Assembly: GCA_015061745.1 (NCBI GenBank)
Contig: SUWB01000010.1
Span: 1 to 64,000 of the forward strand
Length of the DNA stretch: 64,000 bases
Direction of reading: 5' to 3'
Source of the DNA: Lentisphaerota bacterium
GTDB taxonomy: Bacteria; Verrucomicrobiota; Lentisphaeria; Victivallales; Victivallaceae
Shown here: piece by piece, positions 2,379-64,000 of the stretch
How positions within the stretch are numbered: the stretch's first letter is position 1
How the letters are laid out: every line of letters starts with the position of its first letter
Translations under genes and position numbers: made by a program
Notes under the pieces: generated by a model
The model's input: only the letters and a program-made list of their open reading frames with translations
Databases searched by the model: none
What the model was told of the DNA's origin: nothing

Positions 2379-4456
2379 TTTCTGATCCGGAACACCCGTG
2401 CTTCAAGTCCGGCAAAAGCGGTACTGAAAAACTTTTTACCGGGCAGAGTCAGTTTCAAACGGTTGGCGGCATTCCGGCAGTTGACCGCTACCAGCAGATA
2501 ATATCTGCCGCAGTCCCGCAGAGCCAGCTGGAATCCGTCAGGTTCTTTCACCTGAACAGCCGCGTGAGAATGGAACTCCTCCATCAGCTCATCAAGTTCC
2601 GCCCCGGTGGATGAAATAACCGACCAGAGCCGGGAGCGTTCCGCAGGAAGAAATCCGTGTCCCAGATGAAGCAGAGCCCCGGCACTGCCGTTGATGAAGG
2701 CCAGATAAAGCTCCGCCCGCAATTCTTCGGCACTGCGGCTGTAATTATTGGGCACGGTCACTCCGAACCAGTGCAAAAGCACCTTATCCGGAACTGTTTT
2801 ACGGATATTTCTGATTTCCCGGGCGATTTCCGGCATAGGGTCTGCGTAATAACTGCCCTTCACAGCGACTTCAAAAACATCACAAGCGGGAGCAAAACGT
2901 GATGCCACATTCTGCCGGTCGATCTGAAGTGAAAAGAGCTGTCCGGGAGCGGCCTTTTTCAATTCCTGATAGATTTTTTTGTAGAGAGCGGCTGAATCCG
3001 TTTCCAAAAATTTCTTATTGTTTTCAAACCAGCTTTTCATCTGGGCTTCGTAAGAGATCCGGCTGATCTGCAAAGTTTGTCCGTTGAGCTTCATTCCCAG
3101 GGTACGATAAAAATCAAGGACGCTTTTTTCATCTTTGGGGAAAACATATCCCGTTCCCTGAGGTGAACGGCGGAGCCGTTTGCCGGGAAGCTGCACCATT
3201 TCCAGAGCACCGGGGATCTTTCCGACGGTGATGTGCCCCAGATTGAAACAGGGGCCGTGATGCAGTTTCAACACCTTTGTCTGGGAACCGCCCAGCAGAA
3301 AACGCTTTCTGGTGCCGCAAACGAGGAAGTTCCCCTGAACGCTCCATTTCCCGCTGCAATCCCGCATCAAAGGAGCTGTTTCAAGCACTTCAAGAAGCCG
3401 GGAAAAACGGTAATTACCGCTTTGCACCGTCAGCTGATAACGTCCCGGAACTTCGGGAAGTGCAAATGTTCCCTGATCTTCAGCAGACTCCCATTTTCTG
3501 GAAGCAGGCCCGGAAAGAAAAAAACGTTTTTTCCCTTTGAAAGCACTCCGCCAGAAAATCTTTTTCTCATTGGGGGTGTAGTAATAGCGGTCAAGTTCCA
3601 AATAGGGACGGTTGTCAAATCCGCACTGAGCTGTCCGCTGCCAGAGGATCTGTCCCCGATTGTTTTTCAAACGGATGGTCCGGCGGTGCTGGGATTTCAA
3701 AGCGAGTTCCGCAGCAGGGGCGGAAAAACTCCACTTGCCCTCACGGGAACGGCATCCCTGCCACAGTTTGCCATCTTCCTCAACTTCAAGCTGATAAGAT
3801 TTTCCGTTAAGGACCCTTGCAGCAAGATCAAGACCGGATTGCTTTTCAATAACAACCACAGGAGCTGTGGAAGAACCGAAACGCAAATTGCCATACTCTG
3901 ACACATTGTGAAAATCCTTGCCGCCGCCCCAGCTGGAATGCTGACGCAAACTGCCTTTGGAACGGTTGTGGCAGAAATTGATCTTCCACACGGTTCCCTT
4001 TTGGGGTCTTTGCTGTCCCAGATCGGCAAAAGGAATTTCAATGACAATGCGGCTCCAATCTTTCACATCCGCTTTGAGTCCGGCAGGCTCCCAGGAAGTG
4101 TCCCTTTGTCTTGCACTGTAAATATCTCCTGCGGGATTGATGCCGATATGAAAATAAACTTTCCGGGCGGGATCGGGCGAGATTTGGATTTCCACCGATT
4201 CCTGCCCCACCACAGCAGGAGAATCTTTGGGAGCCCGCTTAAAGGTATAATCCCCGTTTTTCACCCCTGTGTAAAAAATAAATTTGAGTCCGGAGGAAGT
4301 TTCTTCGATGAGAACACAACTTTCCCCTGTTTTCCACTTACCTGTAATATCCAAAAAGTTGGCAGCCACACCGCCCGATGAAAAACACTCAGGAGCTGCC
4401 GCTCCGTTCAAAAAGCATAAAAAACTCAACAGGCAAAGGATAAACAGTTTTTTCAT
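2375..4456 (-). CDS. Secreted protein with CBM9-like N-terminus and glycosidase-like C-terminus
   Basis: About 693 residues. A signal peptide (residues 1-21, ending near GAAAPE) is followed by a region of about 170 residues with the alternating pattern of CBM9-like sugar-binding domains, including VEIQISPDPARKVYFHIGIN and the block around WSRIVIEIPFADLG. The C-terminal half from about residue 440 has alternating strand-helix character and FEVAVKGSYYADPMPEIAREI, resembling a (beta/alpha)8 glycosidase core, but no catalytic pair can be named. The ATG at 4456 follows GGGAAC; the TTG at 4462 is less likely. First gene of a three-gene coupled unit. Confidence 0.6.
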   Translation of the reverse strand: MKKLFILCLLSFLCFLNGAAAPECFSSGGVAANFLDITGKWKTGESCVLIEETSSGLKFIFYTGVKNGDYTFKRAPKDSPAVVGQESVEIQISPDPARKVYFHIGINPAGDIYSARQRDTSWEPAGLKADVKDWSRIVIEIPFADLGQQRPQKGTVWKINFCHNRSKGSLRQHSSWGGGKDFHNVSEYGNLRFGSSTAPVVVIEKQSGLDLAARVLNGKSYQLEVEEDGKLWQGCRSREGKWSFSAPAAELALKSQHRRTIRLKNNRGQILWQRTAQCGFDNRPYLELDRYYYTPNEKKIFWRSAFKGKKRFFLSGPASRKWESAEDQGTFALPEVPGRYQLTVQSGNYRFSRLLEVLETAPLMRDCSGKWSVQGNFLVCGTRKRFLLGGSQTKVLKLHHGPCFNLGHITVGKIPGALEMVQLPGKRLRRSPQGTGYVFPKDEKSVLDFYRTLGMKLNGQTLQISRISYEAQMKSWFENNKKFLETDSAALYKKIYQELKKAAPGQLFSLQIDRQNVASRFAPACDVFEVAVKGSYYADPMPEIAREIRNIRKTVPDKVLLHWFGVTVPNNYSRSAEELRAELYLAFINGSAGALLHLGHGFLPAERSRLWSVISSTGAELDELMEEFHSHAAVQVKEPDGFQLALRDCGRYYLLVAVNCRNAANRLKLTLPGKKFFSTAFAGLEARVFRIRK

Positions 4457-35773: not shown

Positions 35774-36648
35774 TCGACTGGTCCGCCATTGCCTCAACAG
35801 TGCTTGACACTGTACTTAAAGCATTGATAAGCTCAGGAATCATCCTGGGCTTTTTCTGCTGTTTTCTGCTGCTGGCCTCTCTGCTGCAGCTGATTACATT
35901 GACTCTCCGGCGGAAATGGTATGAGCTGCTGGGTGAAAAGAGCTGGATATTGCTCTCAGTTCCGGGAACGATCGTCCACGAATCAGCTCACGCTCTTTTC
36001 TGCCTGATTTTCCGGCACCGCATATTGGAAATGAAACTCTTTTCTCCGGGCGAAGACGGCACTCTCGGACTGGTCGATCACAGCTGGGATGCAAAAAGTC
36101 TTTACCAGCGGACGGGAAACTTTTTTATCGGTACCGGCCCTATTATTGTCGGGGTCGCCCTGATCGTGCTTGCAACGGTCTGGCTGCTTCCGGAAGTCTG
36201 GGAAGAAGTGACTCCCCCTGAAATCTACACCCTGAGCGATATGGCAGCGGGGATCCTCGTTCTCATCTGCCGGATGCTCAGAGCTCTTTTCTCTCTGGAG
36301 TTATGGCAGAAATGGCAAACCTGGCTCTGGCTCACCATTACTCTGCTTATCGGCTCCCATATTACTTTAAGCAGGGAGGATCTGAAAAATGCCACTGTGG
36401 GGCTCTGGCTCATTCCGGTGGTGGTTTTTCTTTTCAATCTGGCACTTATCTGGTTCTACGACCCTGCGGAGCTGCTTTTCAAATACGGCAGTGCCCGGAT
36501 CGCCTGTACTATGGCAGTAATGATATTCATTGCGCTGATTCTGATTTTTTTCACTTTTCTGCTTCATTTGCCAGTATTTCAAGTGGGATCTCCGCAAAAA
36601 AATTCTGCCTCACGCAAAAAAAGCGCAGGCAGAAAACAAGCTCAGTGA
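35770..36648 (+). CDS. Polytopic membrane protein with HExxH motif (M50-like)
   Basis: A 292-residue integral membrane protein with about six helices. PGTIVHESAHALFCLIFRHRI contains HESAH inside a hydrophobic stretch, as in site-2-type (M50) zinc peptidases. A matching third ligand (NPDG-like) is not evident, so activity is uncertain. The start is a TTG that overlaps the rfaE2 stop (TTGA). It ends the redox/nucleotide/heptose operon, and its last seven bases overlap the convergent tail-gene stop. Basic Ser/Lys-rich C-terminus. Confidence 0.65.
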   Translation: MIDWSAIASTVLDTVLKALISSGIILGFFCCFLLLASLLQLITLTLRRKWYELLGEKSWILLSVPGTIVHESAHALFCLIFRHRILEMKLFSPGEDGTLGLVDHSWDAKSLYQRTGNFFIGTGPIIVGVALIVLATVWLLPEVWEEVTPPEIYTLSDMAAGILVLICRMLRALFSLELWQKWQTWLWLTITLLIGSHITLSREDLKNATVGLWLIPVVVFLFNLALIWFYDPAELLFKYGSARIACTMAVMIFIALILIFFTFLLHLPVFQVGSPQKNSASRKKSAGRKQAQ

Positions 36649-37505
36649 CTCTCTTTCTTAAGGTGTTTCACAGCTTCAGCGGCCCGTTCAGCGGCACGCC
36701 GGATCTCCTCAGGGGAATAAAGTTCCTCCGGGATCGCCGCTGCCGGAAAAGTTCTTTTTTCTCCGGCAACTTCAAGGCACCGTCTGAGCAATTCAAGGGG
36801 CAGTGATGCAGCATATTCCAATGTCCACTTGAAACGGTATGCCGCCAGAATGACCTCTCCGGTGATCGTCTGACTCCCTGCGGCTGTTGAAAAATCATTT
36901 CCAACAGCCGGAGCATATCCGTTACCGGGCAATTCTGCGACGGAATAAAAATTTCCTTCTCCCTGCAAATCATCTTTGACTTCAAGATCAACTGCTGCAA
37001 AACTGTTGGAGTTCCGGGGAGTGTTCCGGATACAGAAACTTTCTTTTTCTGTTGGCAGACCGCCCCGCCATTCCACATTCTGCGCGCCCTGTCCTTCAGG
37101 AATTTTTGCAGAGCTCCGGAAAGTAAAAGATTTGTTTTCTTCATCACTCAAGCTGAATTCACATTTTTCCGGCAGCATTTCAACATCACAGGAAACAGAA
37201 AAACTGTTTTCTTCCCGCCCCCTGCCGGGAGAAAGTGTAAAAACTCCGGCTTTGCTCTTTTGGGATAAAAGAACAAAAGCCGAAGCCAGTTTCAGGGCAT
37301 CAGCCCCGGAGATCCTTTCCAGAGCTTCCCGGTAATGTTCCGGAAAGAAATGACGGAAAAGTCCGATGATCTTTTCCCGGGCGGAAACGGAGGGCATTTC
37401 AATGATTTTTCTGCACACAGTTTCCACGGCGTGCCAATCTGCCGTTCCGGGCAGAGAAAGATCAATATGCTCTCCTCTGCCGCTGATGACCGTCATCTGT
37501 TCCAT
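36642..37505 (-). CDS. Hypothetical protein after a phage tail-tube-like gene
   Basis: A 287-residue soluble protein without recognised domain. The N-terminal third is helical (ERISGADALKLASAFVLLSQ), the middle is polar and beta-like, and the C-terminus is a charged helix rich in Ala/Glu (EEIRRAAERAAEAVKHLKK). It starts three bases after the tail-tube-like gene. In tailed phages that position usually holds a tail assembly chaperone, so that role is possible but rests on position alone. No tape-measure gene follows; the next gene is convergent. Confidence 0.45.
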   Translation of the reverse strand: MEQMTVISGRGEHIDLSLPGTADWHAVETVCRKIIEMPSVSAREKIIGLFRHFFPEHYREALERISGADALKLASAFVLLSQKSKAGVFTLSPGRGREENSFSVSCDVEMLPEKCEFSLSDEENKSFTFRSSAKIPEGQGAQNVEWRGGLPTEKESFCIRNTPRNSNSFAAVDLEVKDDLQGEGNFYSVAELPGNGYAPAVGNDFSTAAGSQTITGEVILAAYRFKWTLEYAASLPLELLRRCLEVAGEKRTFPAAAIPEELYSPEEIRRAAERAAEAVKHLKKESH

Positions 37506-37508
37506 ATT

Positions 37509-37958
37509 TTACGCAAATGTGAAAAGTTTTTTGGTGCTGCTGTCGGCAAAGGCTTTGAAGACCAGTTTTGCCACGTGATCCTGTCCCATAGCAGGGACGT
37601 AACTTGCATCGGGCTGCAGATAGGCACAGGGGAAAACAAGTGTTTTTTCATTTTCCGCAAGGGGTGTGAAAGTCAGGGTGTTTTTGCGGCTTTCATCCAT
37701 AATATCTTCTCCGGCGGTAAAATCGCCCAGCAGTTCAAGAGCTGTGGTGATATCCTTGGTTTCAAGGGTCACAGTGGCACAATCCTGCACCAGCAGAGAA
37801 GCCACGGCCTCAAAGCCGCCGTTTTCATAAATGGTGGATTCCACGGTTTTCCGGTTGGTTTCGATCCGGGGGGCAGAAGCCAGCGGAGCGATTACTGTGG
37901 AGCCGAAACTGGCAACATAGGTATGCCTTTTGATTGTTGTGACATCGTAAGTACTCAT
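37509..37958 (-). CDS. Phage tail tube-like protein
   Basis: A 149-residue beta-rich protein. Its pattern fits small major tail proteins of siphophage-type particles: an opening with SFGSTVIAPLASAPRI, alternating strands VTLETKDITTALELLGDF and NTLTFTPLAENEKTLVFPC, and a C-terminal DHVAKLVFKAFADSSTKKLFTF. The final motif, a strand with HxVxLxFxA before a turn and LF, is the part I recognise; no search was possible. AAAGGAAA precedes the start. With the following 287-residue gene it makes a two-gene island flanked by ordinary chromosomal genes, with no integrase nearby. Confidence 0.55.
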   Translation of the reverse strand: MSTYDVTTIKRHTYVASFGSTVIAPLASAPRIETNRKTVESTIYENGGFEAVASLLVQDCATVTLETKDITTALELLGDFTAGEDIMDESRKNTLTFTPLAENEKTLVFPCAYLQPDASYVPAMGQDHVAKLVFKAFADSSTKKLFTFA

Positions 37959-38068
37959 TTGGCAAATTTCCTTTCTTTGGGATTTTTAACTTCCGCATTG
38001 TGCAAAAGTCTTTTCGTAAGTAACAATTATGTCAGGATATTTTATTTCCTGAATTACTTTTTAATGAC

Positions 38069-61544: not shown

Positions 61545-62798
61545 TTATGCCAGGATAAAACGTTTTTCCCGGGGTTCAGAAAGAGCCGCGACCGCCCATA
61601 CCAGAGCATCAAGCCGGTCAGGAGACTTTACTGCCGTCAGGGGGGAATAAGAACACATCTCCTCCTCCAAATCAGAAAAAAGTCCTGCGTGATGAACAAG
61701 ATTTTTTTCATAGAGTGCCGCCACAGGTTCCGCCCGGAGAACTTTTCCCCTGCGGGCGGAAACCGCCTGAAAGGGCAATCCCGGAGAGAGTTCACAAAGC
61801 ATCGTCCGGATAAGATCGCCTCCGTTATTGACTTCACCGATGACCCGGTCGGCGTTGAGTTCCCGGTACAGTTTGATCACCTCCCGCCCCCATTCAAGAG
61901 GATTGACCCGGCAGCTGCGGTCAGCAAGGATATAATAGTGGCCGTCCGCTGACGTTCCCGCTCCCACAATGCCGGTCAGGTCGGAATTTTTCCCTGCCGT
62001 CACGGCTGGATCGACTCCGATGACCACCCGGAGCAGTTCCGGAGGATTCACCACCCGGTTGCGGTCGATGATTTCGCTGTTCCACAAAGCCCCCTCCACT
62101 TCATCCTGCCATTGTCCTTCGAGGAACCGCCGTCTCTGCCGCACAGAAAGAGTCCCCAGAGTATCGTCGATATATCCGGGAGGCAGATTTTCTTTGTTGT
62201 CCGCCGGATTGATACGCATCATCGCATATTGCTCCGGCAAAACAAGGGGCGTATTGTCGGCGGGGTTGAGTTTCTGAACGAACATCCGGTAACTCCAATG
62301 GGACTTCCCCGGCGGATTGCAGTCAAAAAAGGCTTTGTTTGAAAGTCCAGGCACATATTGAGCCAGCCGGGTCAGAGCCGTCTGCACACTGCCGAAATCC
62401 AATTCGGAACACTCGTTGAAGTACAATGTGGCAAACTCTCTGCCCAATATTTTTTCCGCCCGCTGAGCATCATCCAGTCCGACCAGCTGAATTTCCGCCC
62501 CGTTGGGAAATCTGAACACAGAATCAGTTTTGCTGTATTCATACTCAACCCCGGGGAAACGGCAGCGCAGTGCTTTGGGCATCGTGTCATTGCCCACTGC
62601 ACTGCGGACACCGTTGAAGTGACGCCGGATCACTGCGTGGCGGGAGCCGGCTCCTTTCAAAGCCCGGATAACCAGAGCACAGCAGAGCACAAAGGTTTTA
62701 CCGGACCGGCTGCCGCCGTAAAGCAGACAGAAACGGGCTCCCGATCCCAACAAGCTCAAAGCCTCCTGTTGAGCGGGACTGTATTTGAAATTCCCCAT
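61545..62798 (-). CDS. Phage terminase large subunit
   Basis: The ATPase-nuclease that pumps DNA into phage heads. The 417-residue product is full length: Walker A GGSRSGKT (residues 28-35), Walker B TLYFNECSELD, the coupling region ending RFLEGQWQDEVEGALW, then the RNase H-like nuclease with IGVDPAVTAGKNSDLTG, DRVIGEVNNGGD and SPDRLDALVWAVAAL carrying the metal-binding Asp residues. No frameshift or stop is present. The gene lies seven bases after a Cys-rich/HTH gene and just before the eno promoter, with no phage lysis or integrase genes in view. Confidence 0.93.
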   Translation of the reverse strand: MGNFKYSPAQQEALSLLGSGARFCLLYGGSRSGKTFVLCCALVIRALKGAGSRHAVIRRHFNGVRSAVGNDTMPKALRCRFPGVEYEYSKTDSVFRFPNGAEIQLVGLDDAQRAEKILGREFATLYFNECSELDFGSVQTALTRLAQYVPGLSNKAFFDCNPPGKSHWSYRMFVQKLNPADNTPLVLPEQYAMMRINPADNKENLPPGYIDDTLGTLSVRQRRRFLEGQWQDEVEGALWNSEIIDRNRVVNPPELLRVVIGVDPAVTAGKNSDLTGIVGAGTSADGHYYILADRSCRVNPLEWGREVIKLYRELNADRVIGEVNNGGDLIRTMLCELSPGLPFQAVSARRGKVLRAEPVAALYEKNLVHHAGLFSDLEEEMCSYSPLTAVKSPDRLDALVWAVAALSEPREKRFILA

Positions 62799-62804
62799 AT
62801 CCGT

Positions 62805-63323
62805 TTACTGATTTTTTTGGCAGCGGCCGCAACTTTTAAATTTACTTTTCAAACCGCCCACCCTGCGCAGAGCAGTTTGAAAAAGAGCAGCCAGTTCCGG
62901 GAAACGCAATACGGAATCCACCATTTTTTCGTGCATAGACTGCCTTGTACACCCTCTCAGTTCCGCCAGATACGCCAAACTGACACCGCCGGGACGCTGC
63001 TGAGAAGGAGAAATCATTTCTGCCACGATTCCCAAGGTATAGCCGTCAAGGGACATAATCCACTTAAGCATTCTTGCCAGAGCGGCGATCATCTCATCCC
63101 GGAACTGCGGCGGCAGTTCCTCCTCTCCGGGGATCCGGCAGTTGGGATCGGCGAACCATTCTCCCACGGCATTGTCCAAACTGACCAGCCCCTGCCTTCC
63201 GCTGAGGCCGACAGTACTTTTTGTGTAGAACTCACAGGAACTTTTGTAAACACAGCTTTTACACTTTGCCTGAGAAGAAAAGCTCCCGTAACACGCCTTT
63301 GAATCATTATGTTTTCTCATCAT
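62805..63323 (-). CDS. Cys-rich protein with HTH-like segment (candidate small terminase)
   Basis: A 172-residue protein. The N-terminus has a Cys cluster (CYGSFSSQAKCKSCVYKSSC) and the C-terminus two more (KSCGRCQKNQ), suggesting metal binding. The middle holds SLAYLAELRGCTRQSMHEKM, a helix-turn-helix-like stretch. The position directly before the large terminase is that of terminase small subunits, which bind DNA through an HTH, so that role is inferred. GAGGGTGA precedes tandem ATG codons; the first was used. Adjacent to the connector-like gene. Confidence 0.55.
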   Translation of the reverse strand: MMRKHNDSKACYGSFSSQAKCKSCVYKSSCEFYTKSTVGLSGRQGLVSLDNAVGEWFADPNCRIPGEEELPPQFRDEMIAALARMLKWIMSLDGYTLGIVAEMISPSQQRPGGVSLAYLAELRGCTRQSMHEKMVDSVLRFPELAALFQTALRRVGGLKSKFKSCGRCQKNQ

Positions 63324-63692
63324 TCACCCTCTCTGCAAAGCAATTTTTCCCGTTTTGAGCGCATTACATAATTCCAATGCCCGGGGCGAAAAGAAACCGC
63401 GGAATTCACCTGAAGCATAGGTTACACTTCCGGCTCCTTCCACGGTTTCTGAAACGATTTCTCTGGCAGGAGTCATCAGACGGTTGCAGTTGAGAAGCAG
63501 ATAGATAGCCTGTTCCCCCACGGCGGCGGCAAAGAGTTCGGACTCTTTATCCACAGCATTCCCCGTATGGCAGAGGACATCGTGTTCTGCCATCGTCAAC
63601 GCGGCACGACGCTGATCCGGGGTGGCAGAAGTATACAAAGCTCCCGCAAGATGGGAAGCGATAAAACGTTCAATTTTTTCCGGAATATTCAT
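63324..63692 (-). CDS. Phage head-tail connector-like protein
   Basis: A 122-residue helical protein with a run of four helices (IERFIASHLAGALY, TPDQRRAALTMAEHDVL, SELFAAAVGEQAIYLLLN) and a polar loop, then a C-terminal helix. This matches the size and layout of small gp6-like head-completion proteins that sit beside capsid genes. The call rests on neighbours (capsid-like gene upstream, terminase downstream) and composition, not on a sequence motif. GAGGTG is the ribosome site. Confidence 0.5.
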   Translation of the reverse strand: MNIPEKIERFIASHLAGALYTSATPDQRRAALTMAEHDVLCHTGNAVDKESELFAAAVGEQAIYLLLNCNRLMTPAREIVSETVEGAGSVTYASGEFRGFFSPRALELCNALKTGKIALQRG

Positions 63693-63705
63693 TTTTCACC
63701 TCGTC

Positions 63706-63749
63706 AAAAAGCTCCTTTCTCTTCCCGGTACGGCGAAAAGAGAAAGGAG
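63706..63749 (-). terminator. Strong hairpin with T-tract after the capsid-like gene
   Basis: CTCCTTTCTCTT and AAGAGAAAGGAG form a perfect 12-pair stem with a 14-base loop. On the minus strand the stem is followed by CTTTTT, so it can act as a terminator or attenuator between capsid and connector genes. Confidence 0.75.
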
Positions 63750-63763
63750 GCGGCACACTCTTA

Positions 63764-64000
63764 TCAGTCGGCGCGGAGCATACTCAACGCTTCAGCGGAA
63801 CCCATCAGATTTTTGATGCGGCAGCAACGCTGTTTGGCATTGCGGAACTCAAAAGTCAGTTCCCCCAGAGCAGTACGGCGGATACCGTCAAATCCGGAGG
63901 GAGTGGCATCTTCATCACTGATGCCCCGTCCCTGCAGACTGGCCAGACCGAAACCTTCGGGGTCGATGATCCACGCTTCAGTATCAGGCATATCAGGATC
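63764..64000 (-). CDS. C-terminus of a probable phage major capsid protein (cut by the right edge)
   Basis: The reading frame is open to the window edge, so only the last 78 or so residues are seen. EAWIIDPEGFGLASLQGRG and RRTALGELTFEFRNAKQRCCRIKNLMG resemble the end of HK97-fold capsid proteins of the SU10/DUF5309 kind: an extended strand with Asp-Pro, then a strand ending in RNxKxxxxIxNL. This is my reading without a search. Gene order (capsid, hairpin, connector, HTH, terminase) supports it. Confidence 0.45.
   Translation of the reverse strand, partial: DPDMPDTEAWIIDPEGFGLASLQGRGISDEDATPSGFDGIRRTALGELTFEFRNAKQRCCRIKNLMGSAEALSMLRAD

Follow-up and report, generated by a model that had tools for sequence, protein, structure and literature searches.

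Scattered head and tail genes of siphophage type in Victivallaceae suggest a gene transfer agent-like particle of independent origin

A temperate prophage forms a single block in which integrase, replication, lysis and tail genes adjoin the head genes. Capsid-forming phage-inducible chromosomal islands (cf-PICIs) are mobile, carry an integrase, and have head, portal and terminase genes without an adjoining tail module. The gene transfer agent (GTA) RcGTA is said to keep its genes for the major capsid protein (MCP), the portal and the large terminase subunit (TerL) in one cluster. According to excerpts of PMC9662315, the genes of RcGTA (Rhodogtaviriformidae) lie at five loci, and BhGTA/VSH-1 (Brachygtaviriformidae) has a 16.3-kb structural cluster, an experimentally validated endolysin, and a conserved single-copy terL outside the structural cluster, with genes that co-diversify with the host. 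GTAs are hard to find, resembling prophage remnants and being spread over several loci (excerpts of PMC11841831). Here we analyze a 64,000-nucleotide stretch of DNA from a Lentisphaerota bacterium of the family Victivallaceae (the window: bases 1–64000 of the 76,757-bp contig C73, SUWB01000010.1, in a 3.10-Mb assembly of 75 contigs that is 91.6% complete), which ends inside an operon of tailed-phage head genes. We consider it probable that this operon and its relatives across the family encode a domesticated, vertically inherited and dispersed siphophage particle, most likely a GTA of independent origin. Throughout, G-numbers denote genomes (G000 is the window's own), C-numbers contigs and L-numbers fetched loci (the window's is L001, whose position 3764 corresponds to window 63764).

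Head genes of this type are present in most of the family. In transcription order the window's operon reads small terminase subunit (TerS), portal, scaffold, MCP, head-tail adaptor, a Cys-rich and helix-turn-helix-like (HTH/Cys) protein, and TerL, with a divergent S24-type repressor gene. The series that the initial annotation had read from the window (capsid C-terminus, hairpin, connector-like gene, HTH/Cys gene, large terminase) is thus real and belongs to a larger operon than it described. Among the 78 genomes of the family (Lentisphaeria; Victivallaceae by record titles), MCP is found in 64 (counted from the family rows of the order-wide search only), portal in 65, and TerL in 66, one of these a 46-aa fragment; each is usually present in one copy. 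Beyond the family, MCP occurs in families f2 and f4 (three genomes each), for a total of 70/137 genomes of the order. Over 60 genomes including its own, TerL is found in 40, among them 30 of the 33 other members of the window's genus (as a fragment only in G005), usually as a single, stop-free frame. Rather than a complete prophage confined to one strain, the finding that the initial annotation had set against its own proposal, we therefore see head genes in 64–66 of 78 family genomes.

Congruent trees and strong constraint indicate that these genes have been kept and passed on mostly with the host. Trees of MCP, portal and TerL (38 genomes) have 17–18 of 22–24 well-supported splits in common and 1–3 in conflict, and distances among the three genes correlate also in 11 genomes outside the genus (r 0.76–0.83). 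Compared with a host marker tree (rpoB, 500 aa, 20 genomes, 10 supported splits), portal has 8 splits in common and no conflicts (distance correlation 0.71), TerL 7 and one (0.69), and MCP 7 and two (0.60). The head-gene trees are largely congruent with rpoB, indicating mostly vertical inheritance and co-diversification with the host. dN/dS (Nei–Gojobori, up to eight genome pairs) is 0.03–0.15 for portal, 0.04–0.12 for TerL, 0.05–0.17 for TerS, 0.07–0.21 for MCP, and 0.10–0.33 for scaffold, adaptor and HTH/Cys, single values being rough because many pairs have a dS close to 1 or higher. Two tail-type genes introduced below, tube and stopper, give 0.12–0.14 (two pairs) and 0.15–0.37 (three pairs); all ranges omit the G012/G027 stopper comparison (27 codons) and two adaptor comparisons with infinite dS. 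The position of TerL and portal among the most constrained genes favors a particle that carries DNA. Separately, one genome (G010) has two full-length rpoB matches (C40 and C44), through contamination or a second copy.

The head genes form one operon in the window's genus and are mostly dispersed elsewhere. In 28 loci picked for holding the operon (27 from the genus, one prophage), TerL, HTH/Cys, adaptor, MCP, scaffold and portal are present in all, TerS in 27 and the repressor in 22. Outside the genus, MCP, portal and TerL are mostly separated, either by contig or by a long distance within one contig, and three units recur: a scaffold-MCP-adaptor cassette; portal, often with a stopper-like gene; and TerL, sometimes with TerS. 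Among 35 genomes outside the genus with both portal and TerL, MCP stands beside TerL in prophages only (G121:C90 and G102:C10, where all three genes occur together). For example, on the single 3.88-Mb contig of G125, MCP, portal and TerL lie at 0.57, 1.86 and 2.24 Mb, and in G135 they lie at 1.77, 1.79 and 1.60 Mb, with 12 kb between MCP and portal and TerL 170 kb off. Despite this separation the units occur together: of 44 family genomes outside the genus, 35 have both portal and TerL, nine have neither and none is mixed (Fisher 1.4e-9), with MCP mixed in one and stopper in three, although the Fisher values overstate the evidence because the co-absences fall in five genera plus one genome and are non-independent.

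Loci in which only MCP, scaffold and adaptor are seen (L081, L094, L096–L098, L101, L103, L104 and L111) were considered as capsid-only, encapsulin-like compartments, a candidate that we rejected: the nine genomes and two controls all have TerL, in the nine at another locus, and the family search, compared by contig numbers and coordinates, shows portal in the nine as well. In L094, L098, L101 and L104 the cassette occupies the same chromosomal place, preceded by aconitase-family (leuC/leuD-like) genes and followed by a P-type ATPase gene (Pfam on L104 and L101); the contig of L097 starts at the cassette, so that only the P-type ATPase side is visible.

Tail-type genes are found in the same genomes, apart from the operon. 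Profiles built from prophage and family genes recovered tube-like genes in 30/78 and stopper-like genes in 48/78 family genomes. The window's own genome has one stopper gene (C28) and two tube genes, one on C36 and the other in the window (37509–37958, reverse strand, 149 aa); the latter is surrounded by host genes and lies 24 kb away from the head operon. The window's tube protein matches profile A5, whose six source genes are one from a prophage and five from the family (E 2.3e-13 genome-wide, 6.8e-15 locally); PHROG and Pfam scans of it gave nothing useful. Its neighbors are held in common with G012, G013 and G027 and partly with G024, and those of the stopper with G012, G013 and G027. Directly after the tube gene is a gene for a 287-aa protein (36642–37505, reverse strand) with conserved ends and a variable middle, no family match in PHROG and Pfam scans, and homologs in the same position in G012, G013, G027 and, as a short version, G024; by position it may be a tail-assembly chaperone. 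Stopper and tube adjoin in six other genus members (G005, G006, G007, G009, G019 and G032). A PF10145 tape measure was rejected as a common component: it is present in 15/78 family genomes and absent from G000, and so marks other prophages. In L261:1–2560 and other family tube frames of about 300 aa, the tube domain is continued by a second one, similar by eye to the protein in the tail-completion position of prophage L165, which may reflect a gene fusion.

In the window's subclade a shared upstream element links the scattered genes. In the window's genome, TerS, the stopper and both tube genes are preceded by C[CT]TGACAT and then a run ending in (A/G)AAAG. By genome-wide pattern match the element (CCTGACAT...CGAAA) lies upstream of the window's tube gene at 38012–38038 on the reverse strand, and before TerS at C73:67439–67465; it also precedes the stopper, the second tube and other genes of this genome. 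Within the subclade C[CT]TGACAT precedes 5/5 TerS, 6/6 tube and 4/5 stopper genes, which are all of its occurrences among 33 TerS, 18 tube and 28 stopper genes, with a chance expectation of 0.009 per 320-nt stretch. It was found before none of 47 TerL, 31 HTH/Cys, 44 adaptor, 45 MCP, 42 scaffold, 41 portal and 24 repressor genes. A looser, longer pattern gave 42 matches in six genomes (15 for the reversed pattern); of the 32 examined, 22 precede five gene families and 10 fall within long frames or have no gene after them, and the tube sites of G012, G013, G027 and G024 fit the eight-letter element only. Two of the five families, beside TerS, stopper and tube, were recovered by the element scan itself: a small protein beginning MIVELKSL or a near variant (6/6 genomes, always followed by a conserved 281–298-aa protein) and a 297–329-aa protein with weak similarity to phage cement/decoration proteins (4/6 genomes).

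The strict form of the pattern has four places in the whole genome, namely TerS, both tubes and a MuF-domain gene (L358:1579–2664, forward strand, on G000:C7; PF04233 1.8e-6, just below the curated cut-off; PHROG head morphogenesis 9.4e-8), and misses the stopper. The MuF protein has a long C-terminal part of no assigned kind, and a membrane-protein-like frame comes next (by eye). Toxin tails are known from phage MuF proteins; we take this C-terminal part to resemble a polymorphic toxin, and the protein could be a particle-borne effector with an immunity gene. The place of the gene behind one of only four strict elements would suit a domesticated particle with a job other than DNA transfer, such as delivery of protein cargo. 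We regard this as unlikely, since TerL and portal, two of the most constrained genes, are required for DNA packaging, and since the MuF gene is known from G000 only, other genomes having gone unsearched for it.

Genes of the operon have matches consistent with a tailed-phage (caudoviricete) origin. Those in the window lie on the reverse strand. TerL, the last gene, is at 61545–62798 (Pfam Terminase_6N/6C, PHROG 979); a PF03354 (TerL_ATPase) search of the genome gave no match, Terminase_6N/6C being the fitting families. The HTH/Cys gene (62805–63323) gave no convincing family match in Pfam and PHROG scans and has homologs also in related phage regions; an alignment of 30 homologs keeps the Cys residues and the C-terminal part, and the protein is probably a regulator. 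The adaptor-like gene (63324–63692, adaptor-like model) is separated from MCP by a hairpin (63712–63749) followed by T-rich sequence, and the predicted fold of the 90-nt intergenic stretch has -26.8 kcal/mol (raw energy). Among eight folded relatives the hairpin position is strong but of other sequence in G012, G027, G013, G032, G019, G014 and G135 and weak in G125, and the predicted structure looks attenuator- or terminator-like. The C-terminal end of MCP occupies 63764–64000 of the whole gene (63764–64918, L001:3764–4918; SU10_MCP 6.1e-46). The initial annotation had suggested extending to the right of 64000 in search of portal, protease and tail genes; there we find scaffold (64971–65516, PHROG 194 1.3e-6), portal (65599–66975, PHROG 145 7.5e-41) and TerS (67030–67485, PHROG 309 3.3e-31), and no tail genes among the frames scanned. 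The divergent repressor gene (67655–68221, forward strand, L001:7655–8221; Peptidase_S24 1.7e-9) follows, and by eye its intergenic region shows a sigma-70-like promoter overlaid by the palindrome ATTGCAC-NN-ATGCAAT. Among 25 repressor copies (31 loci), the S24 catalytic place is held by Ser in 17 and by Gln, Met or Glu in six, and the motif is absent in two.

Host genes flank the operon on both sides, and about 8 kb of contig lie beyond the end of the block. No integrase, replication, lysis or tail gene is seen among the scanned frames on either side, a scan that left out the contig's last three frames and most of the window; within it, the block structure of a temperate prophage is missing. 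The host neighbors of the operon differ between subclades of the genus (enolase adjoins TerL in the window's genome and G024), so that either the operon moved as a block or its surroundings moved. Separately, L051 and L058 have the operon beside the same host gene pair, c14–c15, in opposite orientation. A mobile block with head, packaging and adaptor genes and no tail genes alongside would also fit a capsid-forming phage satellite of cf-PICI type, which builds heads itself and takes its tails from a helper phage. We think a satellite improbable: the scanned frames beside the operon hold no integrase or replication gene (no integrase search was made elsewhere in the genome), the genes sit at separate loci in most of the family, usually once per genome and in most genomes, their trees agree largely with that of rpoB, and these genomes also have tail-type genes preceded by the shared element.

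The unusual gene order was inherited from a phage lineage. The initial annotation took the order, with capsid ahead of terminase, as possibly rearranged at this locus, yet the same order (TerS-portal-scaffold-MCP-adaptor-...-HTH/Cys-TerL) is found in prophage L165 (G102:C10), with a minor head gene and tail-type genes, and in IMG/VR contig L414 (44.8 kb, 21 kb fetched), with stopper-like and tube-like genes. A third region, prophage L252 (G121:C90), reads HTH/Cys-TerS-TerL-portal-scaffold-MCP-adaptor and then minor head, a gene in the stopper position, gp10-like, tube and PF10145 tape measure genes. Tblastn against 50,697 deposited phages matched 28 records with MCP (25.5–28.1% identity in the 15 rows listed) and 34 with portal (23.4–26.0% in the 15 rows listed), and by these identities the window's phage lineage is remote from deposited phages. 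The operon could be an old consolidated state or the result of re-supply by a phage such as L165.

Two further readings were weighed. A decaying cryptic prophage remnant without function would account for a few broken copies and for the integrase, lysis, tip and tape-measure genes that we did not see (scanned frames; PF10145 search). We find it very hard to reconcile with dN/dS far below 1, with frames that are open in nearly all genomes, and with the upstream element that scattered genes of the window's subclade have in common. That the operon is the edge of an active prophage whose order was rearranged, one half of the choice offered by the initial annotation, can draw on related phage regions with tail genes (L165, L252 and L414) and is next to negligible given host genes on both sides of the operon and a conservation pattern of a gene set common to the family.

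The other half of that choice, a domesticated particle such as a GTA, is well supported by presence in 64–66 of 78 genomes, rpoB-congruent trees, low dN/dS, separate loci and the subclade element. Three of the features by which PMC9662315, as excerpted, recognizes GTAs are found here (tailed-phage origin, genes at separate loci and mostly vertical inheritance); the excerpts also name random packaging of host DNA, incomplete packaging of the GTA's own genome, and delivery of packaged DNA to other cells. More specifically, we lean slightly toward an independent Lentisphaeria GTA of about the age of the family, dismantled almost to single genes (the units being MCP cassette, portal-stopper, TerL, tube, decoration-like and MuF-like) and kept together by common control signals (in the window's subclade, an element of promoter type), with one genus that has or kept a seven-gene operon, perhaps re-supplied by phage. 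In such a system a regulator, perhaps the S24-type repressor or the HTH/Cys protein, would switch the scattered units on together; MCP and scaffold would build the head, TerS, TerL and portal would fill it with host DNA, adaptor and stopper would close the neck, tube proteins would add the tail, and the particle would deliver DNA to kin. If the head is of ordinary size, dispersal would mean that the gene set itself cannot be fully packaged.

Several observations weigh against this interpretation, beside the high dS and the clustered co-absences noted above. The system is known here from genes alone and is classed as GTA-like, not as a proven GTA. Dispersal has exceptions: portal and TerL adjoin in G122 and G121:C58 and are near each other in G128, and MCP and portal are 9–12 kb apart in G102, G135 and G136. 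Some copies are damaged, with MCP in two pieces in G006 (L040), an internal TAG in the portal of G121:C58 (L251), and TerL in G095–G097 only in several pieces over many contigs (repeated, interrupted or badly assembled copies are candidates). Two incomplete drafts have partial sets: G023 has stopper and none of MCP, portal and TerL, and G005 has tube and stopper with a TerL fragment only. The names stopper and tube rest on position in related prophages and on weak matches; a PF10145 search found no tape-measure gene in G000, and no tip or lysis genes turned up, though no search was aimed at them. C[CT]TGACAT was not seen outside the genus in the upstream scan of head, tube and stopper genes, so that its confinement to the window's subclade leaves the scattered genes outside the genus unexplained by it. 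Other genus members show at best a variant: a TTGACAA-type element stands before TerS and the unlinked stopper in G006, G009, G015 and G002 (by eye) and beats 12 shuffles in G006, G015 and G002, the TerS matches of G007, G009 and G019 are no better or barely better than 12 shuffles, and that of G032 is another sequence. Finally, the window's repressor copy has Gln in place of the S24 catalytic Ser, so self-cleavage may have been lost in the window's subclade.

If correct, the GTA interpretation would add a new phylum and a new ancestral phage type to the known GTAs; literature searches on Lentisphaerae/Lentisphaerota, Verrucomicrobiota, Victivallis and Victivallales gave no GTA in this group among the matches listed. 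It would also open a path for genes to move among these bacteria, whose 41 named relatives (metagenome-assembled or uncultured) come in many cases from the gut of ruminants or horses by their record titles, and would provide unusual material on the change from phage to host organ, with an operon-bearing genus beside genera with scattered genes. The element common to scattered loci is a handle for recovering more of the set, which makes testable the question of how far a GTA can disperse and still work.

Each of the closest described systems matches this one in part. The related phage regions L414, L165 and L252 have homologous TerS, portal, scaffold, MCP, adaptor, HTH/Cys and TerL genes, but their tail-type genes lie in the same stretch as the head genes, and L165 and L252 also have a minor head gene. 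cf-PICIs have head, portal and terminase genes with no tail module alongside, as does the window's operon, but differ in their integrase and mobility, whereas no integrase is seen beside the operon and its trees are largely host-like. RcGTA likewise has tailed-phage head and packaging genes that were endogenized over several loci and are inherited vertically with the host. It belongs to another phylum; the system described here has an SU10-type capsid protein, no tail cluster or lysis gene turned up, and in most genomes of other genera even MCP, portal and TerL are separated from one another, unlike in RcGTA. BhGTA, as far as the excerpts describe it, has a 16.3-kb cluster in contrast to the units of one to seven genes found here, which are known from genes alone, and resembles the Victivallaceae system in having terL apart from the structural genes and in co-diversifying with its host.

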